Position numbers and translations under genes: made by a program | The notes under the pieces: generated by a model | Database searches by the model: none | Told to the model about the DNA's origin: nothing | Seen by the model: only the letters and a program-made list of their open reading frames with translations | In this document: piece after piece, positions 16,172 to 34,127 of the stretch | How the letters are laid out: each line of letters starts with the position of its first letter | Position numbering within the stretch: position 1 is the first letter of the stretch | IMG/VR virus record: IMGVR_UViG_3300042300_000730 | Coordinates: 1-37,368 of that record | Origin: a virus | Length of the DNA stretch: 37,368 nt | Reading direction: 5' to 3' (one strand)

Positions 16172-16189
16172 ATTATATAAACTCTGGAA
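16172..16189 (-). promoter_or_regulatory. Box/-10 promoter TTCCAGAG-ttta-TATAAT
   Basis: Drives the gene starting at 16129 with a leader of about 36 bases that opens with a stem-loop. Confidence 0.75.
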
Positions 16190-16227
16190 AATGCTCAACT
16201 AAACTCGAGTTGAGAAGACTGCTTGAA

Positions 16228-16253
16228 GAGCCGGGCCCCAACCGGCCCGGCTC
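16228..16253 (-). terminator. Hairpin GAGCCGGGCC / GGCCCGGCTC
   Basis: Perfect 10-bp GC-rich stem with a 6-base loop, between the stop at 16265 and the next promoter. There is no U-tract, so termination strength is uncertain. Confidence 0.6.
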
Positions 16254-16264
16254 CTCGAATTCAA

Positions 16265-16570
16265 TTAGAATTCGTAGCAGTAGTATTCGTGGCGCTCGCC
16301 GACGTAGAGCTTGAGGCCGCCTCTCATCGAGGATCCTTGCAGTACGTACTGGCCATTCGCGCGAAGCGTGAACGTCATTGTTTCGCCTTGTGGATTTGGT
16401 GTGATAATCCACTGATTGCTCATTGGCGCACCGGTTGCAACAGCGTTGTCGCGTTGGGCGACCACTGTTTTGTTGTTTTCACTGACCGCGATAACAGTCA
16501 TCGCAATCGTGTCGGCGCAGAATGAGACGGATGCTCCCATTCCAATTTCTGGTTTAATCATGGTTTTCAT
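16265..16570 (-). CDS. Conserved actinophage hypothetical protein
   Basis: 101 residues from the ATG at 16570, after leader AACGACGAAAGGACAAAA. The pattern GASVSFCADTIAMTVIAV, VVAQRDNAV, TFTLRANGQYV and LYVGERHEYYCYEF matches a small beta-rich family frequent in actinophages; its function is unknown. The promoter block is nearly identical to the one driving the WGR gene at 19084, suggesting recent copying of the 5' region. Confidence 0.72.
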   Translation of the reverse strand: MKTMIKPEIGMGASVSFCADTIAMTVIAVSENNKTVVAQRDNAVATGAPMSNQWIITPNPQGETMTFTLRANGQYVLQGSSMRGGLKLYVGERHEYYCYEF

Positions 16571-16586
16571 TTTTGTCCTTTCGTCG

Positions 16587-16610
16587 TTGTCAGGCTTGTT
16601 TGCTTGACAA
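16587..16610 (-). promoter_or_regulatory. 5'-terminal leader stem-loop TTGTCAaGC-aaacaa-GCcTGACAA
   Basis: An 8-of-9-bp stem whose core GTCA begins at the predicted +1 (16608). It resembles the leader hairpins at 16146 and 31181. Confidence 0.5.
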
Positions 16611-16614
16611 GATA

Positions 16615-16632
16615 AATATATCATCTCTGGAA
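16615..16632 (-). promoter_or_regulatory. Box/-10 promoter TTCCAGAG-atga-TATATT
   Basis: Drives the gene at 16570; leader about 38 bases. CTCGAG flanks the box. Confidence 0.75.
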
Positions 16633-16639
16633 CTCGAGT

Positions 16640-16662
16640 GGCCGGCCAGTTTGTGGCCGGCC
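16640..16662 (-). terminator. Hairpin GGCCGGCC / GGCCGGCC
   Basis: Eight-bp GC-only stem with a 7-base loop, directly after the stop at 16678 and before the next promoter. Confidence 0.55.
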
Positions 16663-16677
16663 GGCCGAACCTCGAGT

Positions 16678-17046
16678 TTAGCGGTTTGGGTAGAAGGGAA
16701 TGTTAAGCAGTTTGCAGTGAGCGTCGATGAAGTCGATGATTGGTTTGCCGAATGCCGATATGCAGTCGTCGAAGTCGTCGCAGAAGTCTGAACCGGCGTA
16801 GTCGTAGCGTACGCCGTAGTTAAGTGTTTCGTCGGCTGAAAAGCCGATATTGACGAAGTCGAAGACGTTGCCGTTGTAGTCGTGGCTGAAGTTGTTGAAA
16901 AACTCAGTGGTTTCGGTTGGGTCGTCGATGCCGGACTTAGTTGTAAGTAAGTAGGCGAGTGACAGTTTTGCGTCGAAGCTGACAGTTTCGTTGTCGATGT
17001 CGGTAAGCGTGATTTCGTAGGTGTCAGTTTTGAGTTGCGTTTTCAT
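16678..17046 (-). CDS. Acidic protein of unknown function
   Basis: 122 residues beginning MKTQLKTDTYEITLTD; the in-frame extension to 17085 runs through the leader. The protein is rich in Asp, Phe and Tyr (FVNIGFSADETLNYGVRYD, DFCDDFDDC) and shares acidic composition and a similar length and opening (MKT.. + beta strands) with the protein at 25098. A common origin or DNA-mimic character is possible but unproven. Confidence 0.65.
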   Translation of the reverse strand: MKTQLKTDTYEITLTDIDNETVSFDAKLSLAYLLTTKSGIDDPTETTEFFNNFSHDYNGNVFDFVNIGFSADETLNYGVRYDYAGSDFCDDFDDCISAFGKPIIDFIDAHCKLLNIPFYPNR

Positions 17047-17076
17047 TTTTGTCCTTTTGTCGTTGTTGGTATATAC

Positions 17077-17094
17077 ATTATACAAACTCTGGAA
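17077..17094 (-). promoter_or_regulatory. Box/-10 promoter TTCCAGAG-tttg-TATAAT
   Basis: Drives the gene at 17046; leader about 24 bases. ACTCGAG and then the TAG stop of the upstream gene adjoin the box. Confidence 0.78.
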
Positions 17095-17101
17095 CTCGAG
17101 T

Positions 17102-17263
17102 CTACTGATCGTTCAACCGTACAGCAATCAGTCCAGCCAACCCAAAGGCTATCGGCACAGGTGTGTTGGCGCCGGCAATGGCAGAAACGACTGAGACTAC
17201 TCCGCAGCCTGCTGCCACTACCGACGTCCAAATAACGTCACGAAAACGTGAACGCCAGTTCAT
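17102..17263 (-). CDS. Small two-span membrane protein
   Basis: 53 residues (MNWRSRFRDVIWTSVV...VRLNDQ). Its ATG shares bases with the TAA of the upstream helix-turn-helix gene (TAATG), indicating translational coupling. Two hydrophobic segments, residues about 11-31 and 35-48, are preceded by a basic N-terminus. The stop TAG abuts the next promoter. A holin-like or membrane-perturbing role is possible; the family is not recognised. Confidence 0.6.
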   Translation of the reverse strand: MNWRSRFRDVIWTSVVAAGCGVVSVVSAIAGANTPVPIAFGLAGLIAVRLNDQ

Positions 17264-17442
17264 TAGGCCTTGCGGCGAGTGCGACCCTTGAGACGCGACG
17301 AAGCATCGCGAACTGGAGTGCCTGCTTCATTGATAAGTTTACGGGCCTTGCCGTAGGTTACGCCCAAAGCTTGAGCTACTTCTACAATTGGCTTTCCTTC
17401 TGCGTAAAGCTGCGCTGCAGCTTGTGGAGTTGGAGTTGACAT
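17263..17442 (-). CDS. Small helix-turn-helix DNA-binding protein
   Basis: 59 residues from the ATG at 17442. LYAEGKPIVEVAQALGVTY followed by GKARKLINEAGTPVR is the classic small actinobacterial/actinophage helix-turn-helix, with a basic tail GRTRRKA that should bind DNA. The start is supported by the leader CAACGAAACGAGGAATA. The frame stays open to an ATG at 17604, which would add 54 residues and overlap the coiled-coil gene by 47 bases, so a longer form cannot be excluded. It is a candidate regulator of the promoter family. Confidence 0.65.
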   Translation of the reverse strand: MSTPTPQAAAQLYAEGKPIVEVAQALGVTYGKARKLINEAGTPVRDASSRLKGRTRRKA

Positions 17443-17557
17443 TATTCCTCGTTTCGTTGTTTGTTGTTTGTGCCGCACTGGCTCGTCAGTTGGCGTCATT
17501 GCCAACTGAGCTCGGGAGCGTGCGATAAGCTCCTCCGCCTCGACGAGTAGCATTTCG

Positions 17558-17695
17558 CTACTCACGATCAAACTCATTAGTTCGCTCGATAAGGCTGAAG
17601 TCATTTAGTTTCTTTCTCAGCAACGCGTTCTCTATTTCTAGCTCCGCGTTTCGTCTTTGTAAGTAACTCATTGACCATTCTTCTTCCTTTGTCAT
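17558..17695 (-). CDS. Small coiled-coil protein
   Basis: 45 residues. YLQRRNAELEIENALLRKKL is a short leucine-zipper-like coiled coil. The ATG lies 4 bases after the stop of the membrane-protein gene at 17700. No function is assigned. Confidence 0.5.
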   Translation of the reverse strand: MTKEEEWSMSYLQRRNAELEIENALLRKKLNDFSLIERTNEFDRE

Positions 17696-17699
17696 AGCG

Positions 17700-17981
17700 T
17701 CAGATCGATGGTATATCATTTTCGTCATAAAGTACACCTTGATCCGCATCTTTTTTAGGAGCTACTACTCCAAGTAAGGTTTTTGAATCTTTTTGCGCAA
17801 AACGCTTGACAGACCACACAGTTGCGAAGTGCACCGCTGGCAGCAGCAGCCCAAGGCTCGTGATGAAGACGATGCCGGCTGCGAGACTTGTTTCTCCAAC
17901 AAACGGAATAACAATCAGTGGAATAGCAATTGCTAAACTTAAAAAGATAGCCGCAAACGTTCCTGGTTGATTTTTTGTCAC
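17700..17981 (-). CDS. Two-span membrane protein
   Basis: 93 residues from a GTG with GAGGAAC 5 bases upstream; the in-frame ATG at 18020 lies ahead of a TATATT -10 and is rejected. Hydrophobic segments at residues about 10-27 and 35-58 and a hydrophilic tail (KRFAQKDSKTLLGVVAPKKD) suggest an inner-membrane protein with cytoplasmic ends. Function unknown. Confidence 0.65.
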   Translation of the reverse strand: MTKNQPGTFAAIFLSLAIAIPLIVIPFVGETSLAAGIVFITSLGLLLPAVHFATVWSVKRFAQKDSKTLLGVVAPKKDADQGVLYDENDIPSI

Positions 17982-18113
17982 TTGTTCCTCACTTTCAATT
18001 TTAATATACCACAATTGCAACCGCTCAGATCATTTACACGACCTCAGCCAGCCACTTTTCAATTCCAGCCGGCGAAGTGACTCACAAACGCAGTGCGTGC
18101 CTGTGCAGACAGT

Positions 18114-18371
18114 CTAGCCCTGGGTTGGCAGCTGAATTTCTTGCCCAGGGTAGATTGTAGACGTGCCAAGGTTTAGAACTAAGTCGTCCATGGCATTTAC
18201 AACGTTGCCTGAGCAATTTGCCTGAGCGATGCCGTGTAGCGTCTGGCCTTCCTGCACTGTCACGGCCGGCGAGTTGCAAGTGTACTTGCCACTCTCTTGC
18301 GCGACCTTGACTAAGCCTACAGCCGCAACTGCTGCCAGGGCAACAAAAAACATTTTACGTGCTTTCGTCAT
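18114..18371 (-). CDS. LysM protein with signal peptide
   Basis: 85 residues. The N-terminal MTKARKMFFVALAAVAAVG is a signal peptide or anchor. VTVQEGQTLHGIAQANC, NLGTSTIYPGQEIQLP is a single LysM module that binds N-acetylglucosamine in peptidoglycan. Two cysteines (YTCNS and ANCSG) may form a disulfide. An AAGGAG ribosome-binding site precedes the ATG. A secreted single-LysM protein without an enzyme domain may mark or alter the host wall, for example in superinfection exclusion; this is inference. Confidence 0.8.
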   Translation of the reverse strand: MTKARKMFFVALAAVAAVGLVKVAQESGKYTCNSPAVTVQEGQTLHGIAQANCSGNVVNAMDDLVLNLGTSTIYPGQEIQLPTQG

Positions 18372-18405
18372 TTAAGTCTCCTTCGTCATTGTAGTTGATA
18401 GTACT

Positions 18406-18423
18406 ATTTTAACTTCTTTGGAA
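18406..18423 (-). promoter_or_regulatory. Box/-10 promoter TTCCAAAG-aagt-TAAAAT
   Basis: Diverged copy driving the LysM gene; leader about 28 bases. Confidence 0.6.
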
Positions 18424-18445
18424 CTGAGTTCCCTAAAGCTTAGCA

Positions 18446-18467
18446 GCCCGGGCGACGATTCCCGGGC
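18446..18467 (-). terminator. Hairpin GCCCGGG / CCCGGGC
   Basis: Seven-bp stem, 8-base loop, 14 bases after the stop at 18481 and upstream of the LysM promoter. Confidence 0.55.
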
Positions 18468-18480
18468 GCCAGCGATCTAA

Positions 18481-18705
18481 CTAATAAGCGTACGAGTTTG
18501 AGTGACCCCAGACACGTTGATGTACCGCCGCGATGTCCGCAGCCTGCTCGTTGCTTTCGCATTCCATCTTTAAAATGACGGAATCGCTCGAGTCACCAGT
18601 CGGGCTTGCGAACCAAAGTTCAAGGGTTTTGCCGTAGAGCATGTAACCTCTGAACGCGCCTTTGCTCTCTCGAACAGTCGAGAGTGCTTCGTCTGTCATT
18701 GCCAT
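18481..18705 (-). CDS. Small protein of unknown function
   Basis: 74 residues beginning MAMTDEALSTVRESKGAF. The first ATG after GAAAGGACGAA is out of frame and closes after four codons; the next, ATGGCA at 18705, opens this gene. YMLYGKTLELWFASPTG and ILKMECESNEQAADIAAVHQ suggest a small alpha/beta domain. Its mRNA begins with a stem-loop. Confidence 0.65.
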   Translation of the reverse strand: MAMTDEALSTVRESKGAFRGYMLYGKTLELWFASPTGDSSDSVILKMECESNEQAADIAAVHQRVWGHSNSYAY

Positions 18706-18752: not shown

Positions 18753-18770
18753 ATATTAACTTCTCTGGAA
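18753..18770 (-). promoter_or_regulatory. Box/-10 promoter TTCCAGAG-aagt-TAATAT
   Basis: Drives the gene at 18705; leader about 41 bases. The box directly follows the TGA of the upstream gene. Confidence 0.68.
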
Positions 18771-18968: not shown

Positions 18969-18986
18969 AATGTATCATCTCCGGAA
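18969..18986 (-). promoter_or_regulatory. Box/-10 promoter TTCCGGAG-atga-TACATT
   Basis: Drives the gene at 18941; leader about 21 bases. It forms a 16-bp inverted repeat with the divergent promoter at 19025. Confidence 0.68.
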
Positions 18987-19024: not shown

Positions 19025-19042
19025 TTCCGGAGATGATATATT
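19025..19042 (+). promoter_or_regulatory. Box/-10 promoter TTCCGGAG-atga-TATATT
   Basis: Plus-strand promoter for the WGR gene at 19084; leader about 35 bases. AGTTCCGGAGATGATA is repeated inverted at 18969-18986. Confidence 0.75.
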
Positions 19043-19385: not shown

Positions 19386-19403
19386 TTCCAGAGTTGTTAT
19401 ATT
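19386..19403 (+). promoter_or_regulatory. Box/-10 promoter TTCCAGAG-ttgt-TATATT
   Basis: Six bases before the ATG at 19410: a leaderless arrangement on the plus strand. Confidence 0.75.
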
Positions 19404-19707: not shown

Positions 19708-19893
19708 TTACACCGCGCCAAAGTTGCGTTCAGTCCGCACGCGCTCGAGTTCTTGATTTAGGCTTTCAACTTTAGTCCGCAGCATTTGTATCTCTTCAGC
19801 TGCGTTTCTCATCACAGGCGCGGACGGACCAAGTCCATTGCGTTCTGCCAGCGCAAGAAGACGCCATACAACATCGATTGAACCATCGATCAC
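19708..19893 (-). CDS. Small coiled-coil protein
   Basis: 61 residues from a GTG overlapping the stop of the upstream zinc-ribbon gene (GTGA). The C-terminal half, EEIQMLRTKVESLNQELERV, is a clear coiled coil. Function unknown. Confidence 0.55.
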   Translation of the reverse strand: MIDGSIDVVWRLLALAERNGLGPSAPVMRNAAEEIQMLRTKVESLNQELERVRTERNFGAV

Positions 19894-20090
19894 TTAACTA
19901 GTTCCATGGCCACTCCAGTTGACGTGTGCTCTTTCGGATTGTGGCACACTGGCGGCTCAGATACTTTCACATGAAGAATGACAGTCTCGCCACACTTTGG
20001 GCATTTCCATTTATCTTTTCGTTTTGGCAAGCGCTCGTTGCGATCTGTAGCGCCACCGCTTTCCTCTTCTTCTGCGGCTGCTTCGTTCAT
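19890..20090 (-). CDS. Small zinc-ribbon protein
   Basis: 66 residues. An acidic N-terminus (MNEAAAEEEESGG) and a basic stretch precede WKCPKCGETVILHVKVSEPP then VCHN, a CxxC...C/H metal site. The Shine-Dalgarno AAAGGAG lies 7 bases before the ATG. A TATACT element lies about 33 bases further upstream without the family box, so it may have its own promoter. Function unknown. Confidence 0.65.
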   Translation of the reverse strand: MNEAAAEEEESGGATDRNERLPKRKDKWKCPKCGETVILHVKVSEPPVCHNPKEHTSTGVAMELVK

Positions 20091-20158: not shown

Positions 20159-20398
20159 TTAACGAGTTCGGCGTGCAGTGCGCCGCAGCCTACGCCGCTC
20201 ATTACCAGTAAGTCCGCCCCAGACGCCGATCTGTTCGTTGTCTAGCGCGTAGTCCAAACACTCCTGCCTGACTAAGCACCCAGCGCAGACGACCTTGGCC
20301 TGCCGCGTGACTATACGCGATTTCTCGTTATGGAACAAATCTCCTTTGCCGGCGCACGCCGCATGCTGCATCCAATGCTGCTGCTTAGCGATGCGCAT
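20159..20398 (-). CDS. whiB: WhiB-family Fe-S transcription regulator
   Basis: 79 residues. Four cysteines fit the [4Fe-4S] ligands: C15 (AACAGKG), C38 and C41 (VVCAGC) and C47 (RQECLDY). GVWGGLTGNERRRLRR is the WhiB G[V/I]WGG turn and basic DNA-contact tail. The family is essentially restricted to actinobacteria and their phages and acts with the host primary sigma factor. The ATG overlaps the upstream stop (TAATG). It is a candidate partner in recognising the box promoters, which lack a -35. Confidence 0.93.
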   Translation of the reverse strand: MRIAKQQHWMQHAACAGKGDLFHNEKSRIVTRQAKVVCAGCLVRQECLDYALDNEQIGVWGGLTGNERRRLRRTARRTR

Positions 20399-20831: not shown

Positions 20832-20850
20832 ATTATAACAAACTCTGGAA
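20832..20850 (-). promoter_or_regulatory. Box/-10 promoter TTCCAGAG-tttgt-TATAAT
   Basis: Five-base spacer instead of four. Drives the gene at 20802 and WhiB; leader about 23 bases. Confidence 0.7.
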
Positions 20851-20864: not shown

Positions 20865-20972
20865 TTACTTTATGTAAAACCACCACAGATCTTCTTCTTT
20901 TTCTTCTTCTAGCCTCGCTCGAGGCGCCGGCTGCCACAGCCACAGCATTGCGCGTTTGACAGCCGCGAGCAC
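20865..20972 (-). CDS. Possible 35-residue Trp-rich small protein
   Basis: A GTG that overlaps the subtilase stop (TAGTG, as at 14405) opens 35 codons: a basic start, MLWLWQP, then RARLEEEKEEDLWWFYIK. The overlap suggests coupled translation, but length and composition give little support. Tentative. Confidence 0.35.
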   Translation of the reverse strand: MLAAVKRAMLWLWQPAPRARLEEEKEEDLWWFYIK

Positions 20973-22216
20973 TATCCAACTGCAATCGAGCTGTACGGCG
21001 CTCCACCTACAAGTACGATTACATTATACCCACTTAGGTTTCTAGTCGTCGTGAACTTTACCGCACCGCTGGCTGAAGAAGTCTTCGTCCAAGTAAAGGA
21101 TGACTTAGCTTTTGCTAGTGCGCTAATTTGCATCTTTGTTCCGGGGAGCGAAGATTCAACTGCGATCTCGTAGCCTTCTGAAGTTTTCGTCACCGCAACT
21201 GTTACAGAAGTAGACGACGGCACTTCAGTCCCATTGTCGATCTCTTTGACAATTGTTGTTGAAGTTGTTGTTGTCACCGCAGGCGCAGAACTAGACCCAG
21301 ACAATGGAGCGTACAGCAACTTGTTTGGAGAACCCACGCCAGCGTCAGTAATCGCATCGCTGGTGGCAGAACTCACAATCAACGAAGTAACGTCAGTTAC
21401 AGACAGCGCTGGACTATTCTGTAGCGCTAACGCCGCGACGCCGGTGACGTGTGGCGCCGCGTGTGACGTACCTTTAAGAGTTTTAGACGCTGTTGGCGAC
21501 GTAGCCCACGCTGACAGCACGTTTGCGCCTGGAGCAAATATGTCAACACACTTGCCGTAGTTAGCCCATGACCACCTAGCGTCGTTTTCATCACTCGCCG
21601 CAACGTTGATCGCGCTTGGAGTAGACCCCGGCGAGTAACTGCACGCGTCCTTATTGTTGTTGCCGGCTGCAGTAACTACTACAATTCCATCTGCAATCGC
21701 GCGATCGACCGCAGCATTTACTTTTGATGACAAGTTTCCACTCATGCTGATATTCATGACTGCAGGCTCGCCAGTCTTGTGATCTGCTACTGCCCAGTCG
21801 ATGCCCGCGATCATGTCAGACGTCCAACCATTACCACTACAGTCTGTGACCCGCACAGGGACAAGAGTCACCTTTGGCGCTACGCCGTAGGTTGACCCGC
21901 CGACTACGCCGGCGACATGAGTGCCATGTCCGTAGCAGTCCTCAGTTCCTCGCCCATCAAGAATTTTAGTGAAACCCGCACGAATTCTGCCTGTAAACTC
22001 TTCATGCGACGAGAGTATGCCACTGTCAACTACGTAGACAGTGACGCCTTGACCATTAAGCGCCAGCGAAACGTCTTTGTTCAACGGCAGTGAGCGTTGA
22101 TCAATGCGATCAATATTCCACTGAGCTGTAGCAACGGCTTCCGCATTTCCATAGATTAAGGCGATTACGACGGCAACTATCGCCGCCACAATTGCAAACT
22201 TATTTTTTACTTTCAT
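20972..22216 (-). CDS. Secreted subtilisin-like (S8) serine protease
   Basis: 414 residues. Residues 1-29 form a signal peptide. The catalytic triad is visible: D64 (VYVVDSGIL), H97 (YGHGTHVAG) and S251 (GTSHAAPHVTG), with oxyanion Asn near 186 (AAGNNN). The order matches proteinase K/aqualysin-type enzymes. The usual inhibitor-like propeptide is absent: the mature-type start (QWNIDRIDQRSLPLN) follows the signal peptide directly. After residue 310 comes a Thr/Ser linker and a small beta domain ending VLVGGAPYSS. Its ATG overlaps the upstream membrane-protein gene (ATGA). It probably acts outside the membrane, on host surface or incoming phage proteins; target unknown. Confidence 0.9.
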   Translation of the reverse strand: MKVKNKFAIVAAIVAVVIALIYGNAEAVATAQWNIDRIDQRSLPLNKDVSLALNGQGVTVYVVDSGILSSHEEFTGRIRAGFTKILDGRGTEDCYGHGTHVAGVVGGSTYGVAPKVTLVPVRVTDCSGNGWTSDMIAGIDWAVADHKTGEPAVMNISMSGNLSSKVNAAVDRAIADGIVVVTAAGNNNKDACSYSPGSTPSAINVAASDENDARWSWANYGKCVDIFAPGANVLSAWATSPTASKTLKGTSHAAPHVTGVAALALQNSPALSVTDVTSLIVSSATSDAITDAGVGSPNKLLYAPLSGSSSAPAVTTTTSTTIVKEIDNGTEVPSSTSVTVAVTKTSEGYEIAVESSLPGTKMQISALAKAKSSFTWTKTSSASGAVKFTTTRNLSGYNVIVLVGGAPYSSIAVG

Positions 22217-22574: not shown

Positions 22575-22592
22575 ATATTACATTCTCTGGAA
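22575..22592 (-). promoter_or_regulatory. Box/-10 promoter TTCCAGAG-aatg-TAATAT
   Basis: Drives the membrane-protein/subtilase unit; leader about 42 bases. The box directly abuts the TAG stop of the proteasome-like gene. Confidence 0.7.
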
Positions 22593-23183
22593 CTAAACCG
22601 GCCCGCTCTGAACTTGTATGTTGAACGGCGCGCTCGTGTTTGCGTCCAACCTTGCCGCAACAGTAAGCGCAGTCTTGACCGCAGCCTTAGCTTTATCTAT
22701 GTTGTCCGCACCTTCTGGAAGAAGAGCGTACAGCACACCGAGCGCGTATGGACTTCCAGTGCCAAGGCCGTAGATGCCACTTGTGTCTTTAACCCACGAG
22801 TAGTCTTCTCCGATGACGTACACCGCACCATTGACTGCAGCCAGTATTATTGATCCAGACTCATCTGAATGATCTTTGTTGGGTGAAGGCGCTGTGTAAC
22901 CTTGCTCGTTAAAGCACGCACGCAGTGACGGAACAAAGTCGCTCGTTATGAATTTGTCAAGTCGGGTGCCGACAAAATTCTTAGCGTCAGGCGGACGGAA
23001 TGCGTATTGCAAGATGTTGATCGCGCGCACGTCGCCTGCAGCGCCAAGCAGATACGCACGATTCCGCGCGACCTTGGCTGAACCTTTAGGTAGAACGTAG
23101 ACGCGCCCATCTTCTTCAGTGACACGCGAATCAGACCCAACTACAGTCCAGCCACTGCCAGTTACTGCAACTATCGTTGTCAT
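22593..23183 (-). CDS. Proteasome beta/HslV-like Ntn hydrolase
   Basis: 196 residues. Met1 is followed by TTIVAVTGSGWTVVGSDSRV. Removing Met would expose a Thr1 nucleophile, and the Asp of GSDSRV then falls at position 17 as in proteasome beta subunits; a Lys near position 32-36 (LPKGSAKV) can serve as Lys33. GSIILAAVNGAVYVIGED, IYGLGTGSPYALGVLYAL fits the Ntn sandwich (GSG.. helix). No propeptide is present, as in HslV. It could form a phage peptidase ring or replace host proteasome subunits. No dedicated unfoldase is adjacent. Only 8 bases follow the upstream stop. Confidence 0.82.
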   Translation of the reverse strand: MTTIVAVTGSGWTVVGSDSRVTEEDGRVYVLPKGSAKVARNRAYLLGAAGDVRAINILQYAFRPPDAKNFVGTRLDKFITSDFVPSLRACFNEQGYTAPSPNKDHSDESGSIILAAVNGAVYVIGEDYSWVKDTSGIYGLGTGSPYALGVLYALLPEGADNIDKAKAAVKTALTVAARLDANTSAPFNIQVQSGPV

Positions 23184-23191: not shown

Positions 23192-23494
23192 CTATACCTT
23201 TTTGTCGAGTACGACAGGTGACATCGCATAACGGAACTCTTTTCCATCAAGCTTGCCTTCGACTATCAATGATCTAGGCCACTTAGCCGCAACAACGCAC
23301 TCGGCGCCGCGCAGGGCTTCGTACCCGCATAGGTCATTTACAACAACTAGGTCTCCAGTCTCGTAGTCGGCGACTGAGCGCTTAGCGCGGATCTTCTGCG
23401 CATGGCGCGTCACCGCAGTCTCTATCGAGAACGCGACGTCGTCGTAGACTCCACTTTGCAGATCTGACAAAAACCTCTCAGCTTTTACCTTCAT
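23192..23494 (-). CDS. Small beta-rich protein of unknown function
   Basis: 100 residues. The N-terminal third is helical and basic (RHAQKIRAKRSVADYE). The rest, TGDLVVVNDLCGYEALRGAE then CVVAAKWPRSLIVE, resembles a small SH3-like barrel. GAGGAG precedes the ATG, which overlaps the upstream gene by 17 bases. It lies between a helix-turn-helix gene and the proteasome-like gene. Confidence 0.65.
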   Translation of the reverse strand: MKVKAERFLSDLQSGVYDDVAFSIETAVTRHAQKIRAKRSVADYETGDLVVVNDLCGYEALRGAECVVAAKWPRSLIVEGKLDGKEFRYAMSPVVLDKKV

Positions 23495-23687
23495 TGCTTA
23501 ACTCCTCTACCGCACGCTTAATTTTCAGAATATCGGAGTTCTTCGACGTTGTCGGGTCAGTGACAAAGCGATTAACTTTCCTCGCTGTAGTGCCAGCCGA
23601 CTCTGCAATTTTCTCAATGCCAATTTTCTTTACGGCATGCGCCAACTCGAGCATTTTCTCGATGTGACTTTCTAGTATGACTCCCAT
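23478..23687 (-). CDS. Small helix-turn-helix protein
   Basis: 69 residues. AVKKIGIEKIAESAGTTARK followed by VNRFVTDPTTSKNSDILKIK reads as a Cro/LacI-like helix-turn-helix with a wing or third helix. It is the first gene of the unit with the proteasome-like hydrolase. AAAGGAG precedes the ATG. It may regulate its own unit or the wider promoter family. Confidence 0.65.
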   Translation of the reverse strand: MGVILESHIEKMLELAHAVKKIGIEKIAESAGTTARKVNRFVTDPTTSKNSDILKIKRAVEELSNEGKS

Positions 23688-23728: not shown

Positions 23729-23746
23729 ATTATACATTCTCTGGAT
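23729..23746 (-). promoter_or_regulatory. Box/-10 promoter ATCCAGAG-aatg-TATAAT
   Basis: Drives the unit from 23687 through the proteasome-like gene; leader about 35 bases. Confidence 0.73.
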
Positions 23747-24791: not shown

Positions 24792-24809
24792 ATTATACAA
24801 TCTCTGGAA
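24792..24809 (-). promoter_or_regulatory. Box/-10 promoter TTCCAGAG-attg-TATAAT
   Basis: Leaderless arrangement, 6 bases before the ATG at 24785. CTCGAG and the TAA of the upstream gene adjoin the box. Confidence 0.78.
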
Positions 24810-25071: not shown

Positions 25072-25089
25072 ATTATACAATCTCTGGAA
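25072..25089 (-). promoter_or_regulatory. Box/-10 promoter TTCCAGAG-attg-TATAAT
   Basis: Leaderless arrangement for the gene at 25065. The block including the first bases of the gene matches the copy at 24792. Confidence 0.78.
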
Positions 25090-25430: not shown

Positions 25431-25448
25431 ATTATACAAACTCTGGAA
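25431..25448 (-). promoter_or_regulatory. Box/-10 promoter TTCCAGAG-tttg-TATAAT
   Basis: Drives the gene at 25400; leader about 24 bases. CTCGAG lies beside the box. Confidence 0.78.
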
Positions 25449-25875: not shown

Positions 25876-25893
25876 ATTATATAAACTCTGGAC
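25876..25893 (-). promoter_or_regulatory. Box/-10 promoter GTCCAGAG-ttta-TATAAT
   Basis: Drives 25845 and 25667; leader about 24 bases. The first box base belongs to the upstream TAG stop. Confidence 0.75.
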
Positions 25894-26213: not shown

Positions 26214-26231
26214 ATTATATAAACTCTGGAA
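26214..26231 (-). promoter_or_regulatory. Box/-10 promoter TTCCAGAG-ttta-TATAAT
   Basis: Drives the gene at 26186; leader about 21 bases. The sequence TAA-ACTCGAG-TTCCAGAG joins the upstream stop directly to the box. Confidence 0.8.
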
Positions 26232-26391: not shown

Positions 26392-26409
26392 ATTATATAA
26401 ACTCTGGAA
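26392..26409 (-). promoter_or_regulatory. Box/-10 promoter TTCCAGAG-ttta-TATAAT
   Basis: Leaderless arrangement for the 48-residue gene at 26385. The upstream TAG is followed by ACTCGAG and the box. Confidence 0.8.
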
Positions 26410-26593: not shown

Positions 26594-26611
26594 ATTATAA
26601 CAGCTCTGGAT
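26594..26611 (-). promoter_or_regulatory. Box/-10 promoter ATCCAGAG-ctgt-TATAAT
   Basis: Leaderless arrangement for the gene at 26587, immediately beside two 40-bp repeats. Confidence 0.73.
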
Positions 26612-27158: not shown

Positions 27159-27176
27159 ATTATATAAACTCTGGAA
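27159..27176 (-). promoter_or_regulatory. Box/-10 promoter TTCCAGAG-ttta-TATAAT
   Basis: Drives the pair 27129 and 26914; leader about 23 bases. Confidence 0.78.
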
Positions 27177-27242: not shown

Positions 27243-29036
27243 TTAGCGTTGAACTGACTCCAGCGCTCTTGCTGCTGCAGATCCTATCTGCGTCGCTACG
27301 TCTGCGGCACTTGTAATCTTCTCGACGAGCTGCACTGACTTGGTGCTCGAGCTATTGAGAAGTCGACGAGCGTCGTCACTCGCTAACGGAGACACAACCA
27401 TGACTCCGACACCAAGTCTTTCGCACTCATCTAACCAGCGTCGTGCGTTCTTCGTCTCTTCGTGAGTGTAACACAGATCGCTAACGATGACGAGCAATCG
27501 CGCGCCTACGCCATTGAGCAAGTTCAACGAACCATCAAGCGCTTTGAATGCTTTCTCAAAGCGTTCAGTTCCATCTGGCGCCGAGTACACTGTCACCTCT
27601 GACAAGTGCTGCCCGGGCTTCAATGTTGGGAACACCCCAGTGCCGTAGTAAACCATCGCCGCACGGCCTTGAACTCTCCGCACCGCTTCGCTCATGACCC
27701 ACGCTGTCACTGCCATCGGCTCCATCGCCGAGGACATTGAACCGCTGATGTCGACCATTACGCCGACAGTGAGAGTTGGGTCGTCAGTGTGCGTGCGCTT
27801 AGTCCGGCGCCATGGCTCTACTTGCGTCATGATGCCCTTCGACTTAAACGCTGCTCCCTGCACCATAGCGCGCGTGCGCAACCGGCCAGGAGGAACGATC
27901 GACTTAATCTCAGTCTCGTCACGCTCACGATACTTAGCTTTCTCAAGCATCTGCGCTACCTTGACTGCTGCTGCTCGTTCATCACCACGTGGAGCGCGCT
28001 TTTCAACTAGACGACTGTTTGTCTCAGAAGAAGATTCTGGCCCAGTGCCTCTACCGAATACTTTGTCCGCAGCGTCCTTGTGTTCTTTCTGCTGCTTCGC
28101 TGCACCGCTTCGACTTTTAACTTCACGCTCCCATTCTTCTTGCGTCTGTTGATCTGCTGCATCGGCTGAACCACCGACAGCTGCGTTGCCAGCTGCTTCC
28201 TCGAGTGCTTCCTCGAGTGCTTCCCCGAACTCGCCAAGCTCGCCTAGCCCTGATTCACCTTGACCAGGCTCTGGCTCACCAGCTTCAGCTGCTGCCTCTT
28301 TAACTAATCTTGCCCACTCACGGGCGACAGGGTAGAGACCTTCAATTGAACTGTGTGAAGTGTAGTCCTGAGCTTGCAGCCATAGGTTGCGAAGCTTAGT
28401 GAAGAGCTCTACACCAAGCTTATTGATTAGAACTTCCTCTACAGTCTCGATGTCTGACAGCTCGAGTGAACCCGCATCTACGCGTGCTGACGTGAGTGCC
28501 GCCATGTGCGCTGCTGTCCACATGCTGCTGGTGTCTACACCGGTGACATTGAGGTCAGCCATCACTATCTCGAGCGCGCAAGCGCGGAGAAACCCGGAGT
28601 TACCTGGCATCAAGGTGACGCCTAAGTTCTCGATACGACCTTCTTCAAGAAGCACGAGTGCTTTGAACTCAAGAGACTCGAGGTCCTTCTGCGCTTTAAT
28701 GAGATCCCAGCGAGAGAACCGAGCGTGGAGAGCTTCATGGAATATGACACCAGAAGCTTTAGGCCAGTCGAACTGAACGCTGCGTTGCGTCATGTCGCCG
28801 ATCGACGCCGGCGTTATTGACTTGCCAAACGCTCTCGTCACATCTACTTCGATCTCTGCAAGCATTGGGTTGTAGCACGCTGGTGCCACGCCGCCACCGG
28901 CGCCTGGGCCGACGTACGCGATAACATCTGCGCGTTCTGCCCAGATATTTGTAATCTGGCCGATCTGCACGCCTACGCCTAACCACTCGGGTGGCGTAGC
29001 CTCAGCTCGAGAGCTATTAATCTTAAAATGTGTCAT
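27243..29036 (-). CDS. CobT-like metallopeptidase/VWA protein
   Basis: 597 residues. An N-terminal zinc-peptidase-like domain has GVIFHEALHARFSRW (HExxH, H100/E101/H104) with a later VLLEEGRIENLG that may supply the third ligand. Residues about 235-360 are Glu/Ala/Gly-rich and disordered. The C-terminal von Willebrand A domain has the MIDAS motif VMVDISGSMSS (near 426-432) and VIVSDLCYTHEE. This is the CobT/VWA plus MoxR arrangement, in which the VWA protein delivers substrates to the AAA+ partner, encoded next upstream at 29155. The cobalt-chelatase role is unlikely without CobN; a remodelling or proteolytic role is inferred. Start follows AAAGGACAAGGACAA. Confidence 0.88.
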   Translation of the reverse strand: MTHFKINSSRAEATPPEWLGVGVQIGQITNIWAERADVIAYVGPGAGGGVAPACYNPMLAEIEVDVTRAFGKSITPASIGDMTQRSVQFDWPKASGVIFHEALHARFSRWDLIKAQKDLESLEFKALVLLEEGRIENLGVTLMPGNSGFLRACALEIVMADLNVTGVDTSSMWTAAHMAALTSARVDAGSLELSDIETVEEVLINKLGVELFTKLRNLWLQAQDYTSHSSIEGLYPVAREWARLVKEAAAEAGEPEPGQGESGLGELGEFGEALEEALEEAAGNAAVGGSADAADQQTQEEWEREVKSRSGAAKQQKEHKDAADKVFGRGTGPESSSETNSRLVEKRAPRGDERAAAVKVAQMLEKAKYRERDETEIKSIVPPGRLRTRAMVQGAAFKSKGIMTQVEPWRRTKRTHTDDPTLTVGVMVDISGSMSSAMEPMAVTAWVMSEAVRRVQGRAAMVYYGTGVFPTLKPGQHLSEVTVYSAPDGTERFEKAFKALDGSLNLLNGVGARLLVIVSDLCYTHEETKNARRWLDECERLGVGVMVVSPLASDDARRLLNSSSTKSVQLVEKITSAADVATQIGSAAARALESVQR

Positions 29037-29069
29037 TTGTCCTTGTCCTTTGTTGTCCTTGTACTATCA

Positions 29070-29087
29070 ATTATATAAACTCTGGAA
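29070..29087 (-). promoter_or_regulatory. Box/-10 promoter TTCCAGAG-ttta-TATAAT
   Basis: Drives the CobT-like gene separately from its AAA+ partner; leader about 27 bases. Confidence 0.78.
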
Positions 29088-29092
29088 AGAGA

Positions 29093-29124
29093 GGTTAGCC
29101 TCCCGCACACCTACGGGAGACCAA
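29093..29124 (-). terminator. Hairpin GGTT..CTCCCG / CGGGAG..AACC
   Basis: Two-part stem after the AAA+ gene and before the next promoter. Confidence 0.5.
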
Positions 29125-29154
29125 CCAACGAAGACTGAGCGCGAAAGGCAGCGC

Positions 29155-30147
29155 TTAGATCTTCGCCGGGCGACACTCTTCTCCGAATACTCGGGTGAAG
29201 ACGTCAGCCACGACTGGGCGATCCATCTCGGGAGCGGCAGCTAGCAAGTTCGCGATAGCGAATGATGTGCCGAACTCCTTTGCGAGATCGCGGAACGCTA
29301 GAAGCTCACGCATCTGAGGAGCCCATGAGACTTCAGACGACTGCTGCTTCTTACTTAAATTTTGCGCCGCAGTGACGATTGGCACCGGAGCTCCTAACTT
29401 ACGAGCGAGCGACCAATCAGTCGTCATCTCTGCTTGCACAAGGAATCGTGACAAGAGAGCTTCAGACAATCGCACGCCTGGAGCGTTCGGGTTAGTCGCT
29501 GCGATTACGTAGAAACCTGGAGCAGCTTTCACTGTCCCACGCTCTGGGTTAGCAGTCACAGTGTATTCACGACGGCCATCCATGAGACCGTAGACGATAC
29601 TGAGCACCTTCGGGTCGATAAGACCTACCTCATCGATGAGCAGCACTCCGCCGCACTCCGCTGCTTTAAGCAGTGGGCCGTCCTCCCAGACAAAGCCACC
29701 ACTTGGTGTCTGCACATATCCGCCGACTAAGTCAGCAACTTCTGTGTCGCCTGAGCCGAGCACTGTGAACAAGCCACCGGACTCGCCAGTGAACGCAGCT
29801 TCAACAACAGCAGTCTTACCGCAACCTGGTGCGCCGTACAAAAGTACGTATGCTGACATGTCTCTCGACTTGCGAAGCACCATGACATCGTCATGCTCAC
29901 CCCACTTGCGTGAGTAGTAGTTCTCGCCATTTGGTCGAGTGTAACTCTTCTCGCCTACAAGCGCGTCTGCAGATATCATTGGAACTTTCTTCTTCGGAGC
30001 GATAGTCTTAGCCTTGACGCGTCCTGCGTCGAGAACCATTGACTTCATCTTATCCGCGAACTCTGAGTGCAGAGTCTGCCCCGCTGCTGCAAGCAGCACT
30101 TTGTCTAGCCCCGGGTGGAGCTTGTCGTATTCTGTACTTGATAACAT
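29155..30147 (-). CDS. MoxR/CobS-like AAA+ ATPase
   Basis: 330 residues. Walker A GAPGCGKT at residues 105-112; Walker B VLLIDEVGL with D172/E173; sensor-1 VIAATNPNAPG; arginine-finger region LSEALLSRFLVQ. GSGDTEVADLVGGYVQTPSG and WEDGPLLKAAECGG are typical of the MoxR/CobS clade. Such ATPases remodel proteins with a VWA-domain partner, here the gene at 27243. Its own family promoter and the leader AACGAAAGGACACAAA precede the ATG. Confidence 0.92.
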   Translation of the reverse strand: MLSSTEYDKLHPGLDKVLLAAAGQTLHSEFADKMKSMVLDAGRVKAKTIAPKKKVPMISADALVGEKSYTRPNGENYYSRKWGEHDDVMVLRKSRDMSAYVLLYGAPGCGKTAVVEAAFTGESGGLFTVLGSGDTEVADLVGGYVQTPSGGFVWEDGPLLKAAECGGVLLIDEVGLIDPKVLSIVYGLMDGRREYTVTANPERGTVKAAPGFYVIAATNPNAPGVRLSEALLSRFLVQAEMTTDWSLARKLGAPVPIVTAAQNLSKKQQSSEVSWAPQMRELLAFRDLAKEFGTSFAIANLLAAAPEMDRPVVADVFTRVFGEECRPAKI

Positions 30148-30200: not shown

Positions 30201-30218
30201 ATTATAAAGACTCTGGAA
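30201..30218 (-). promoter_or_regulatory. Box/-10 promoter TTCCAGAG-tctt-TATAAT
   Basis: Drives the AAA+ gene; the longest leader of the family, about 47 bases. Confidence 0.75.
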
Positions 30219-30695: not shown

Positions 30696-30713
30696 ATTAT
30701 ATAAACTCTGGAA
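30696..30713 (-). promoter_or_regulatory. Box/-10 promoter TTCCAGAG-ttta-TATAAT
   Basis: Drives the gene at 30666; leader about 23 bases. Confidence 0.78.
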
Positions 30714-30714
30714 A

Positions 30715-31206: not shown

Positions 31207-31224
31207 ATTATAACAACTCTGGAA
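31207..31224 (-). promoter_or_regulatory. Box/-10 promoter TTCCAGAG-ttgt-TATAAT
   Basis: Drives the gene at 31160; leader about 40 bases. Confidence 0.78.
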
Positions 31225-31328: not shown

Positions 31329-31661
31329 TTACTTGGCGTCGAGGACCGTGTAAGACGACTGAACTAGCGTAGCGTCGTGCGCTTCAGGGAACGCAGTCTT
31401 GAGCGCTTCACGATCAATCTTGCTCATGTTGCGATGTTGAATTCGCACACGAACAGTTCCATTGATTGTGCCACTCTTCGCGTCACCAAGCATTGCACGA
31501 AGCTTTTGCTCCGCTTCTGCTTTCTTCGCTTCAAACGCCTTGATTGCTGCTTTCGCAGAGTTGAACTCTGCAATCGCAATCTCAGTTGCAAGTTCATCGA
31601 GAATTGCAACCTGCTCTGCTACTTCGACTGTTGAGGTCGTGATTACTGTTGATGTTGTCAT
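31329..31661 (-). CDS. Coiled-coil protein, possibly recombination-associated
   Basis: 110 residues from the ATG at 31661 (after ACGAAAGGACAATA); the longer in-frame reading crosses the promoter. A Ser/Thr start is followed by a long Ala/Glu/Lys coiled coil (FNSAKAAIKAFEAKKAEAEQ). The C-terminal part, GTVRVRIQHRNMSKIDREAL then KTAFPEAHDATLV, recalls small proteins encoded with phage recombinases. No such recombinase is in the window, so this is tentative. Confidence 0.62.
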   Translation of the reverse strand: MTTSTVITTSTVEVAEQVAILDELATEIAIAEFNSAKAAIKAFEAKKAEAEQKLRAMLGDAKSGTINGTVRVRIQHRNMSKIDREALKTAFPEAHDATLVQSSYTVLDAK

Positions 31662-31688
31662 TATTGTCCTTTCGTTGTGTGTATAGTC

Positions 31689-31706
31689 ATTATATAAACT
31701 CTGGAA
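31689..31706 (-). promoter_or_regulatory. Box/-10 promoter TTCCAGAG-ttta-TATAAT
   Basis: Drives the gene at 31661; leader about 21 bases. A GGAAACGAG / CTCGTTCC hairpin (31703-31730) overlaps the outer edge of the box. Confidence 0.78.
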
Positions 31707-31760
31707 ACGAGAATCAAAGACGCTCGTTCCCAGAGTTGAATTCATTGTATATCAGGGGTG

Positions 31761-32174
31761 TTACAGGGTTGCTGACGCCAGCACTCTTGCTGGCTTCGAG
31801 TCATCAACATGACTTGCGCCATGGAGCTTGACCCAAGCGTCCCAGTAGCACGTTGACGAGCCATCGTCGAACGTCACCTGCTGACTCTTCAGGATGAAAC
31901 CTGGAGAGCAGTTGCATGTGCAACCGGCGTGCTGCGACCAGCTCAATTTGCTGATGTCAAGCACTCCTGCAAGTCCGCTCGAGTGAATCATCGACTTGTA
32001 GACATTGTACGGGCGACGCTTGCGATTCGCAAGGTTGCTCATAAGTGTCTCATCTTCGATGCTTACGTACATCCGAGGAGCTGCTGTCAGCTCTCGGCTG
32101 CTTGTGTATCTACGTTCAGTGAACGTAATTGACCCTCCAGTGAATTCCACTGTACGTCGTCGTTGCGTATTCAT
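31761..32174 (-). CDS. Protein of unknown function with CxCxC motif
   Basis: 137 residues. A basic N-terminus (MNTQRRRTVEF) and RRPYNVYKSMIHSSGLAGVL precede SQHAGCTCNCSPGFILKSQQ, a possible metal-binding cluster with a nearby His. Leader AACGAAAGGACAAGACA. Family not recognised. Confidence 0.68.
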   Translation of the reverse strand: MNTQRRRTVEFTGGSITFTERRYTSSRELTAAPRMYVSIEDETLMSNLANRKRRPYNVYKSMIHSSGLAGVLDISKLSWSQHAGCTCNCSPGFILKSQQVTFDDGSSTCYWDAWVKLHGASHVDDSKPARVLASATL

Positions 32175-32203
32175 TGTCTTGTCCTTTCGTTTGGTGTAAA
32201 TAC

Positions 32204-32221
32204 ATTATATAAACTCCGGAA
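32204..32221 (-). promoter_or_regulatory. Box/-10 promoter TTCCGGAG-ttta-TATAAT
   Basis: Drives the gene at 32174; leader about 23 bases. Confidence 0.76.
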
Positions 32222-32320
32222 AGTTCGGAAGGCCGCTCAAGACGCCACATTCGTTGAACTCAGTTCTGCCTGTTTAACGGAGTGTCAGCTCCGCACCTTC
32301 CTGGCTATCAGCCAATTCTT

Positions 32321-32515
32321 CTAAACGTTGTTGATTGGCTCAAACCCAAGGTCTAGCGCGGCGCGGCGCGCTTCCTTAGCAGTCTTGAACCCACTGAACG
32401 TCGGGCCGACCACCTCGGTGTTGTGGCCGTCGTACGTGCGGTGTATGCCAAAGTACCGACCATTCGGCCCTTTGTATACGACCATCGGCCGTAGAGGCTT
32501 AGCTTTCGTTTTCAT
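32321..32515 (-). CDS. Small basic protein of unknown function
   Basis: 64 residues. MKTKAKPLRPMVVYKGPNGR then YFGIHRTYDGHNTE and a C-terminal helix (KTAKEARRAALDLGFEP). It resembles an AP2/Arm-like strand-strand-helix DNA-binding module, which is only a structural impression. Leader AACGAAAGGACGCAAAGA. Confidence 0.65.
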   Translation of the reverse strand: MKTKAKPLRPMVVYKGPNGRYFGIHRTYDGHNTEVVGPTFSGFKTAKEARRAALDLGFEPINNV

Positions 32516-32548
32516 TCTTTGCGTCCTTTCGTTGAAGTTGATAGTGAT

Positions 32549-32566
32549 ATTGTAACAACTCTGGAT
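32549..32566 (-). promoter_or_regulatory. Box/-10 promoter ATCCAGAG-ttgt-TACAAT
   Basis: Drives the gene at 32515; leader about 27 bases. The first box base lies in the upstream TAA stop. Confidence 0.72.
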
Positions 32567-32820
32567 TAGCTCTCGCCAAGTGGATCGATTACTCGGCGAA
32601 GAGCTGTGTCAATATGAGCGTCTGCATAGCTCTTCTCAAAGCGGAAGCCATCATCGCAAGCTCGGTGATACACGAACCAGCGATAGAAGACCTCGATGTC
32701 TTTTACAACTGGTATGCGTCCGGCTGCGAACTCTGTTCTAAACCGATCACGCAGCACCGGCGTGTCTATTCCGCTAACTACGTGCTCCAGCTCTGCAAGT
32801 TCGACTGATGATACTTTCAT
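32566..32820 (-). CDS. Small protein of unknown function
   Basis: 84 residues beginning MKVSSVELAELEHVVSGIDT, after ACGAAAGGACAACA. Helical, with a Trp/Phe-rich middle (VKDIEVFYRWFVYHRACDDG). The longer in-frame reading crosses the promoter and is rejected. Confidence 0.65.
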   Translation of the reverse strand: MKVSSVELAELEHVVSGIDTPVLRDRFRTEFAAGRIPVVKDIEVFYRWFVYHRACDDGFRFEKSYADAHIDTALRRVIDPLGES

Positions 32821-32847
32821 TGTTGTCCTTTCGTTTGGTGTAGAGTC

Positions 32848-32865
32848 ATTATATAAACTCTGGAA
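32848..32865 (-). promoter_or_regulatory. Box/-10 promoter TTCCAGAG-ttta-TATAAT
   Basis: Drives the gene at 32820; leader about 21 bases. Confidence 0.78.
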
Positions 32866-32867
32866 AC

Positions 32868-33098
32868 CTAAGAATGAGGACTCATGACTGGGAATGCGCA
32901 CTCAACACAAACAACCCATGATACTTCTAATTGATCGCATACTACAACAGCTGGAAAGAATTCGTCGTCTGTCGGGCCAACAACCATTCCGCAGTTGCAG
33001 CACTCGCTTGACTCGTAAAAAAAGTCGTAAGCGCCGACTTCAGCTGCGATCATTGCCTCAATTGGTGTCTCGACTAAGAGAAGGTTATAGCCCAACAC
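32868..33098 (-). CDS. Small zinc-ribbon-like protein
   Basis: 76 residues from a GTG directly after a stem-loop; no Shine-Dalgarno is visible, and an in-frame ATG at 33053 is an alternative. SSECCNCGMVVGPTDDEFFP and VVCVECAFPV give two CxxC-type pairs expected to bind zinc. There is no family promoter, so it is probably expressed from the transcript of the winged-helix gene upstream. The start position is uncertain. Confidence 0.5.
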   Translation of the reverse strand: MLGYNLLLVETPIEAMIAAEVGAYDFFYESSECCNCGMVVGPTDDEFFPAVVVCDQLEVSWVVCVECAFPVMSPHS

Positions 33099-33134
33099 GA
33101 TACAACTGGCTCACGTTCATGAGCCAACTGTATC
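33099..33134 (-). promoter_or_regulatory. RNA hairpin with G-U pairs between two genes
   Basis: On the minus-strand RNA, GATACAGTTGGCTCA pairs fully with TGAGCCAGTTGTATC using two G-U pairs (loop tgaacg). On the plus strand the same site has two A/C mismatches. It sits between the winged-helix gene and the GTG at 33098, so it may be an attenuator or terminator. Confidence 0.55.
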
Positions 33135-33145
33135 AAATCAGAAGC

Positions 33146-33658
33146 CTAAGCTAGGCGTTTAATTTTTGCCAGACGGTCTTCAAGTTCGGCTACCCGGGCC
33201 TGAAGTTTCGCTGTTCGCTCGCTCACAAGAAGATCGATGAGCTGATCTGCAGTGTGCTTTTTGGCAGCGGTCTTGCCTTTTCGAGTGCTAGCAGGCCGAC
33301 GTCCAGTTTTAAGGACGACGCCCGGTACAGCTTCAGCGACGGTGCGTGGAGGCACAACGTTGCCTTTAGCCCAGTACAGCGACGCTTGATAGCCTTTAGG
33401 CGCTTTCATTGATGAGCGAATGAGACGTTCATCCATGGTCTCGGTACGCTTGCTTACCAGGCCGGCGGCTTCCAAACGAATCAACGCGTTTCTCACTGAC
33501 ACCGGATCGGCTTTTCGTCCGGTCATCTGGCTAATTGCTTGCTGAAGCTCAAGAACGCTGAGTGGTTGAGTAGATTCAAGCAACGTAAGTTGAACGTTGT
33601 CTTTCAGTGTTTGGAACATCATTATTTTTTCTTCTATTACTTGATTGTACTTGCGCAT
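33146..33658 (-). CDS. Winged-helix DNA-binding protein with C-terminal coiled coil
   Basis: 170 residues beginning MRKYNQVIEEKIMMFQTLKD; AGGAG 6 bases before the ATG at 33658 fixes the start. Residues about 20-75 read as a winged helix: PLSVLELQQAISQMTGRKAD then VSVRNALIRLEAAGLVSKR. The middle is basic (RRPASTRKGKTAAKK) and encodes one 40-bp repeat copy. The end, VSERTAKLQARVAELEDRLA, is a coiled coil that should mediate dimerisation. A transcription regulator of the phage programme is likely. Confidence 0.75.
   Translation of the reverse strand: MRKYNQVIEEKIMMFQTLKDNVQLTLLESTQPLSVLELQQAISQMTGRKADPVSVRNALIRLEAAGLVSKRTETMDERLIRSSMKAPKGYQASLYWAKGNVVPPRTVAEAVPGVVLKTGRRPASTRKGKTAAKKHTADQLIDLLVSERTAKLQARVAELEDRLAKIKRLA
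33262..33301. repeat. 40-bp bipartite repeat, copy 3 (inside the winged-helix gene)
   Basis: TGGCAGCGGTC...AGGCCGACG with the same length as the intergenic copies. Read in the gene's frame it encodes RRPASTRKGKTAAK. Confidence 0.65.
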
Positions 33659-33694
33659 CGTTTTCTCCTGTGTCTGTTGTATGTTCATTAATAA

Positions 33695-34102
33695 TTATAT
33701 ATTATCATCTCTGGAAACCCAGTTGCCTTCGGTATCGCCAAAGAGTAGCTGATCGTCTCCAGTTCTAGTCCAAGAAAACTCGCAGCACGAGTGTTCGTCT
33801 TCGTCTTCAAAAAGAGTGTGATACGGGGCACCGGCTCGAAAAATGTTTGGAAGAGCGCGAGCAACCTTTAGAAAGCAGTCGTGACAGAGCACTGTCATTT
33901 CTCGTTCTGGTTCTTCAAACATAAAATCGACGAACATGCCATAGCCGCCAAGTAAGTCAAGGACCATGCCATTTATAACTTGCGGATACTCTTCACGAGG
34001 CTCGTAGTCGATATCTACGTCTTCCACGTATTTTGGATTTTGAACGTGAGTATCCTGATTACACTCGTCGCAACGAGTCTTTGGGTAGCTGTCTCTTATC
34101 AT
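33695..34102 (-). CDS. Acidic zinc-site protein, leaderless
   Basis: 135 residues; the ATG is 7 bases after TATAAT. KTRCDECNQDTHVQ near the N-terminus and LCHDCFLKVA near residue 73, plus EHSCCEF, give paired cysteines for one or two zinc sites. The rest is very acidic (YVEDVDIDYEPREEYPQ). Function unknown. Confidence 0.68.
   Translation of the reverse strand: MIRDSYPKTRCDECNQDTHVQNPKYVEDVDIDYEPREEYPQVINGMVLDLLGGYGMFVDFMFEEPEREMTVLCHDCFLKVARALPNIFRAGAPYHTLFEDEDEHSCCEFSWTRTGDDQLLFGDTEGNWVSRDDNI
33699..33716 (-). promoter_or_regulatory. Box/-10 promoter TTCCAGAG-atga-TAATAT
   Basis: Drives the winged-helix gene at 33658; leader about 34 bases. Most of the box lies inside the end of the upstream gene. 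Confidence 0.7.
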
Positions 34103-34109
34103 TACCAGA

Positions 34110-34127
34110 ATTATATAAACTCTGGAT
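34110..34127 (-). promoter_or_regulatory. Box/-10 promoter ATCCAGAG-ttta-TATAAT
   Basis: Leaderless arrangement, 7 bases before the ATG at 34102. The first base is part of the endolysin stop. Confidence 0.75.

Follow-up and report, generated by a model that had tools for sequence, protein, structure and literature searches.

The contacts that sigma (2.4/3.0) and beta' usually make upstream of the -10 element end near -18. Mycobacteriophage L5-type stoperators occur in many asymmetric, oriented copies, and their sequence differs between related phages. In T4 middle promoters, a MotA box is combined with a consensus -10 and used by a phage DNA-binding protein together with the sigma region 4 binder AsiA (PMC6755090). 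In Actinobacteria such as Mycobacterium smegmatis, leaderless transcripts are prominent, and in M. smegmatis no -35 consensus was found over 6,090 promoters (PMC6448022). The window analyzed here, the whole stretch of 37,368 nucleotides of IMG/VR virus record IMGVR_UViG_3300042300_000730, contains about 30 repeats of an unusual promoter before the small genes of a freshwater actinobacterial phage, confirming the family described in an initial annotation made from the DNA letters. The consensus is the 8-base box TTCCAGAG, a 4-base spacer and TATAAT. The element was found described nowhere in the literature searched (open-licence papers only).

The repeated box promoter in the window

The pattern TTCCAGAG-N4-TATAAT, with up to 3 mismatches, gave 29 matches in the window, compared with an average of 2.09 and a maximum of 6 in shuffled sequences. 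Twenty-six of these were on the minus strand and three on the plus strand (11859, 19025 and 19386), the latter being the same three plus-strand copies as originally reported. The single 5-base spacer noted at that time was found in a further copy at 20832-20850 (minus), giving 30 copies, and a diverged 31st copy was also present. The box is nearly invariant, with exactly the variants given initially. The box promoters are as follows.

11859..11876, plus: TTCCAAAG-TTTT-TATAAT; leaderless, ATG 6 nucleotides after the -10, read directly from the sequence
15550..15568, minus: diverged 31st copy, TTCTAAAG-CAGTG-TATAAT, 5-nucleotide spacer, upstream of 15343-15528
16172..16189, minus: exact consensus
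16615..16632, minus: TTCCAGAG-ATGA-TATATT
17077..17094, minus: exact consensus
18406..18423, minus: TTCCAAAG-AAGT-TAAAAT
18753..18770, minus: TTCCAGAG-AAGT-TAATAT
18969..18986, minus: TTCCGGAG-ATGA-TACATT
19025..19042, plus: TTCCGGAG-ATGA-TATATT
19386..19403, plus: TTCCAGAG-TTGT-TATATT; leaderless
20832..20850, minus: TTCCAGAG-TTTGT-TATAAT, 5-nucleotide spacer
22575..22592, minus: TTCCAGAG-AATG-TAATAT
23729..23746, minus: ATCCAGAG-AATG-TATAAT, upstream of HTH69
24792..24809, minus: exact; leaderless
25072..25089, minus: exact; leaderless
25431..25448, minus: exact
25876..25893, minus: GTCCAGAG
26214..26231, minus: exact
26392..26409, minus: exact; leaderless
26594..26611, minus: ATCCAGAG; leaderless
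27159..27176, minus: exact
29070..29087, minus: exact; 597-amino-acid gene whose match in phage DSL-LC01 is annotated as a cobalamin biosynthesis protein
30201..30218, minus: exact; MoxR-type AAA ATPase
30696..30713, minus: exact
31207..31224, minus: exact
31689..31706, minus: exact
32204..32221, minus: TTCCGGAG
32549..32566, minus: ATCCAGAG-TTGT-TACAAT
32848..32865, minus: exact
33699..33716, minus: TTCCAGAG-ATGA-TAATAT, upstream of the winged-helix gene
34110..34127, minus: ATCCAGAG, upstream end of the array; ATG 7 nucleotides after the -10

Information content was high across -24 to -7 and did not exceed 0.45 bit upstream (T at -29 in 17/29 copies). Within the -10 element, T-12, A-11 and T-7 were invariant across the 29 copies. 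None of these copies had a -35 hexamer, as the initial annotation had stated: TTGACA was tested at 16 to 18 nucleotides, and the information at -36 to -30 was at most 0.24 bit. The same kind of test does detect TTGACA-17 in Microbacterium phage A3Wally. The extended -10 motif TGn (-15 to -13) was not found as a rule in the window, where G occupies -14 in 10/29 copies and TG at -15/-14 is missing from most; it is partly present in some relatives.

The window lies within a viral contig of 98,426 bp, IMGVR_UViG_3300042521_002634, with 1 difference in the 1,869 overlapping bases compared. In this contig, copies with up to 2 mismatches were limited to 46.9-69.2 kb, a gene block of about 22 kb that adjoins the terminase and holds small genes of mostly unknown function. 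A scan of the contig with a position weight matrix at ≥12 bits, as proposed in the initial annotation, gave 31 matches, of which 30 were inside the block, and none in the reversed control. The structural and replication genes of the contig had zero copies, and a search for a shared promoter of late and replication genes found none. When all viral contigs were scanned for the exact pattern, mostly single chance matches were obtained, the one true relative being the contig that contains the window.

Equal frequency within genes, raised initially as a possibility, was not observed, as 28 of the 29 copies do not lie mainly inside a called gene despite the block being 78% coding. Copies precede most gene units, but "nearly every" unit was slightly generous, since the genes for the WhiB protein (20159-20398), a zinc ribbon (19890-20090) and a small helix-turn-helix (HTH) protein (17263-17442) have no copy directly upstream. 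Strong G+C-rich hairpins lie directly 5' of the box promoters at 16172, 16615, 19386, 27159, 29070, 30696 and 31207 and are perhaps terminators of the preceding unit. An upstream hairpin as a general feature of box promoters was rejected, with 12/30 below -20 kcal/mol versus 28% of controls.

Start sites and selection on the box

In 22/29 copies, a Shine-Dalgarno sequence and a start codon follow the -10 at a median distance of 33 bases. The remaining seven copies (11859, 19386, 24792, 25072, 26392, 26594 and 34110) had no Shine-Dalgarno sequence, and all had an ATG 6 bases (six copies) or 7 bases (one copy) after the -10, that is, at the inferred +1 or one base later. Among 441 sites in 15 phages, the ATG was at exactly 6 bases in 67 and at 7 bases in 11, compared with about 2 to 3 at neighbouring positions; 49 of the 97 sites lacking a Shine-Dalgarno sequence had it at 6 bases. 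Because leaderless transcripts are common in Actinobacteria, this peak identifies the A of the ATG as +1 and places the box at -24 to -17, the position proposed initially. On this sequence evidence the copies are promoters, with a -10 and a start about 7 nucleotides downstream as for the primary sigma (SigA/sigma-70). The leaderless ATG register is a sequence-only way of fixing start sites, usable throughout the phage group.

Divergence was measured between two sister phages, using 50 pairs of orthologous promoters. Changes were found in 2/400 box bases (0.5%) and 1/300 -10 bases (0.3%), versus 39/1000 bases (3.9%) at -44 to -25, 7/200 spacer bases (3.5%) and 4.7% at -6 to -1. The difference between the box and the upstream region was significant (Fisher P = 2e-4; 3e-3 with the box count doubled for ascertainment). 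The spacer kept its length and not its sequence. This comparison shows that the box is under selection, constrained like the -10 while the -35 region and the spacer drift. It also bears on whether the repeats arose from a mobile promoter cassette and resemble each other only through recent duplication, as the similar leaders and Shine-Dalgarno regions of different units might suggest. Information, however, is 1.2 bit at -24 and falls to 0.15 bit at -25, and the sister phages keep the box while its flanks drift, so that duplication is largely refuted and very improbable as the explanation.

Lineage-specific boxes and their possible readers

Among named phages, the closest is Actinomycetia phage DSL-LC01 (terminase 84%), which was itself obtained by assembly of a lake metagenome (PMC10611076). 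Its version of the promoter, gATTCTAAAG-N4-TATAAT-nGAATC, is present in about 30 copies at 22.6-40.6 kb. In the DSL-LC01 locus L219 (~14.3-32.3 kb), the promoter is surrounded by an inverted repeat, GATTC...GAATC, made up of box and discriminator, which may be a dimer site. Other contigs carried TTCTAAAG (65 copies), ATCTARGGA (57), AACTCRGGA (36), AACTAGAG, GAAACTAAAG, TTCTGAG, AACTACAA and more. Altogether, the same geometry was found with different boxes (CTAAAG, CTARGGA, CTCRGGA, CTAGAG, CTGAG, CTACAA) in about 19 related contigs. The register was kept as well, with 55/60 TCTAAAG and 21/22 AACTAAAG occurrences lying 4 nucleotides before a -10. The consensus of 19 contigs always has C at -22 and T (or C) at -21, followed by variable positions, which is partly by construction because the seeds chosen began with C. 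These comparisons show a group-wide, selected promoter architecture with a lineage-specific box located in the spacer.

Of the 145 loci that reach 9 kb, a set with many overlapping or near-identical members, 46 fell into the box class, 60 into an extended -10 class (CCTGA-TATAAT and similar) and 39 into neither by these tests. The two classes were largely separate in the terminase tree. In the corresponding block, Microbacterium phages A3Wally and Pumpernickel have TTGACA-17-TAnnnT, and Gordonia phage Forza has TTGTGATATAAT. More distant relatives, outside the group, have TTGACA-17 or extended -10 promoters. In the box-less L205, L310-L354 and L174-L218, CCTGA-TATAAT is followed by a phage-specific start region (AGTACTA, TTAACTCA, TTATCCTA), and in several box-less relatives the palindrome TAGTACTA spans the start site.

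The initial annotation derived a dedicated recognition factor from the missing -35. Since M. smegmatis also lacks a -35 consensus, this absence alone does not indicate such a factor, for which stronger arguments are the fixed 4-base register and boxes that hardly vary within one phage yet differ among related phages. Bases -24 to -19 lie beyond the known contacts, which end near -18, and would need another protein. A box in fixed register, constrained like the -10 and differing by lineage, is what would be expected if a phage protein bound to the box and contacted the polymerase. The best explanation, with a probability slightly above 0.5, is that these would be primary-sigma promoters used with a phage-encoded box-binding activator, in lineage-specific pairs; a phage-encoded activator as such is the likely mechanism. 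Host RNA polymerase with the primary sigma would read the TATAAT, while a sequence-specific phage protein would bind the box, contact the polymerase from the spacer, do the work of the -35 contact and so switch on the entire block in concert. Box and matching protein would be particular to each phage lineage. The genes considered are as follows.

20159..20398, minus: WhiB protein, 79 amino acids, candidate co-factor (Pfam PF02467, E 2e-18)
19890..20090, minus: zinc-ribbon protein, 66 amino acids, adjoining WhiB
23478..23687, minus: HTH69, 69-amino-acid Cro/LacI-type HTH protein, candidate reader (predicted fold, pLDDT 86.7)
33146..33688, minus: PadR-like winged-helix protein with a C-terminal coiled coil at the array's upstream end, candidate reader or repressor (pLDDT 90.4)
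17263..17442, minus: HTH59, 59-amino-acid HTH protein, kept in box-less relatives too

Under this model, the box would likely be read by HTH69 or the winged-helix protein, perhaps while WhiB holds sigma region 4. The HTH69 fold was predicted with good confidence as Cro/LacI-type, with no match below E 0.001, and its alignment was too variable for a contig search. The winged-helix protein is PadR-like, with no match below E 0.001 in the PDB; as a box-class-specific protein it was rejected, being found in both promoter classes. HTH59 was rejected as reader because it is also conserved, with a similar recognition helix, in box-less relatives. The WhiB, HTH and winged-helix proteins named initially are real candidates for the reader.

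WhiB and the zinc ribbon occur together in the box-bearing loci that cover the place and are missing from most box-less loci, an association confounded with descent. Exceptions are G009, with both proteins and few box copies, and G020, with WhiB and no box. In an unlikely variant, these two proteins would take sigma region 4 while a small HTH or winged-helix partner reads the box, replacing the -35 contact; the box sequence would then be an address differing between related phages.

Several results weigh against a phage-encoded activator. The winged-helix gene has its own box promoter upstream in 12/13 phages, a pattern that fits autoregulation better than a role as the only activator needed. 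HTH69 is not exclusive to the box group, as it is also found in the extended -10 relatives L205, L321, L323 and L325, and one HTH69 recognition helix occurs in two phages with different boxes. Box distance did not correlate with winged-helix distance (13 phages) or HTH69 distance (10 phages), and Mantel and partial Mantel tests, in which box distances were compared with those of the winged-helix protein, HTH69 and control proteins, gave no significant result. Nor is an activator strictly needed, since promoters with a bare -10 can function in Actinobacteria (PMC6448022). A host reader is also possible, the host not having been found by a terminase search in reference genomes, which gave 41-44% matches in Proteobacteria only and one 86% partial match, to a metagenome bin labelled Gammaproteobacteria.

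Such a host protein could be an alternative sigma, a CarD/RbpA-like factor or a host regulator, with boxes differing as hosts differ. The -10 is a standard primary-sigma element, and the phage alternative sigma suggested initially was not borne out, as Sigma70_r2 was absent from 8/8 related phage genomes and present in the control genomes. A search for a T7-type RNA polymerase (PF00940) gave no match, with the controls equally silent; the -10 pattern is sigma-type. Closely related phages nevertheless differ in their box, each repeating its own up to 65 times, the known primary-sigma contacts do not reach -24 to -19, and M. smegmatis promoters show no such element (PMC6448022). We consider a host reader improbable.

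The winged-helix gene also suggests that the box may be the operator of a phage repressor that shuts or holds off the block, with promoters firing on their strong -10 alone. PadR is mostly a repressor family, the gene at the array's upstream end carries its own box promoter, and actinobacterial promoters need no -35 (PMC6448022). Boxes differing between related phages would resemble immunity groups, and the inverted repeat of DSL-LC01 would suit an operator. A repressor site would, however, be free to slide, yet the 4-nucleotide register is kept in about 19 contigs despite sequence turnover. Moreover, no palindrome was found in the box of this window, free-standing box copies away from a -10 did not exceed chance, and no integrase is annotated in the listed parts of DSL-LC01. 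A repressor is possible, at odds well below even.

The gene at 22593-23183 is the probable counterpart of a DSL-LC01 gene that is annotated as an HslV-like protease subunit and immediately precedes the WhiB gene of that phage; it is near WhiB here too. A MoxR-type AAA ATPase and a large partner gene (27243-30147) are conserved in the group, the partner having matches in Microbacterium and Gordonia phages. The gene at 20972-22216 encodes a 414-amino-acid protein, by eye a putative secreted subtilisin-type protease; of the phages compared, G002 has a homologue. A 1,309-amino-acid protein (L131:2866-6795), also conserved in the group, had no confident Pfam or PHROGs match.

Comparison with known systems

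Like L5-type stoperators, the box occurs in many asymmetric, oriented copies that differ between related phages; unlike them, every copy here is in register with a -10. WhiB7-dependent SigA promoters share with this locus a WhiB protein, acting there with the primary sigma and encoded here within the block. WhiB7, however, reads AT-rich DNA upstream of the -35 (PMC10245118), whereas the promoters here lack a -35 and have their box farther downstream. As in extended -10 (TGn) promoters, sequence just upstream of the -10 is used without a -35, and the box-less relatives indeed have CCTGA-TATAAT, but the box reaches -24, beyond TGn.

The T4 middle promoters, one temporal class (PMC6755090), are alike in having a consensus -10, a phage-specific box instead of a -35 and many promoters. 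Among the proteins examined, none was recognised as homologous to MotA or AsiA. A MotA box takes the place of the -35, with its centre near -30, whereas the box here has its centre near -20.5, inside the spacer. Phage factors that redirect the host polymerase have contributed greatly to the understanding of sigma factors, chiefly in E. coli. The present locus offers promoters that can be tested, precisely placed start sites, four proteins as candidates and, in the lineage-specific boxes, a natural set of variants, and would be a polymerase-redirecting system of freshwater actinobacterial phages with its box at an unusual place.

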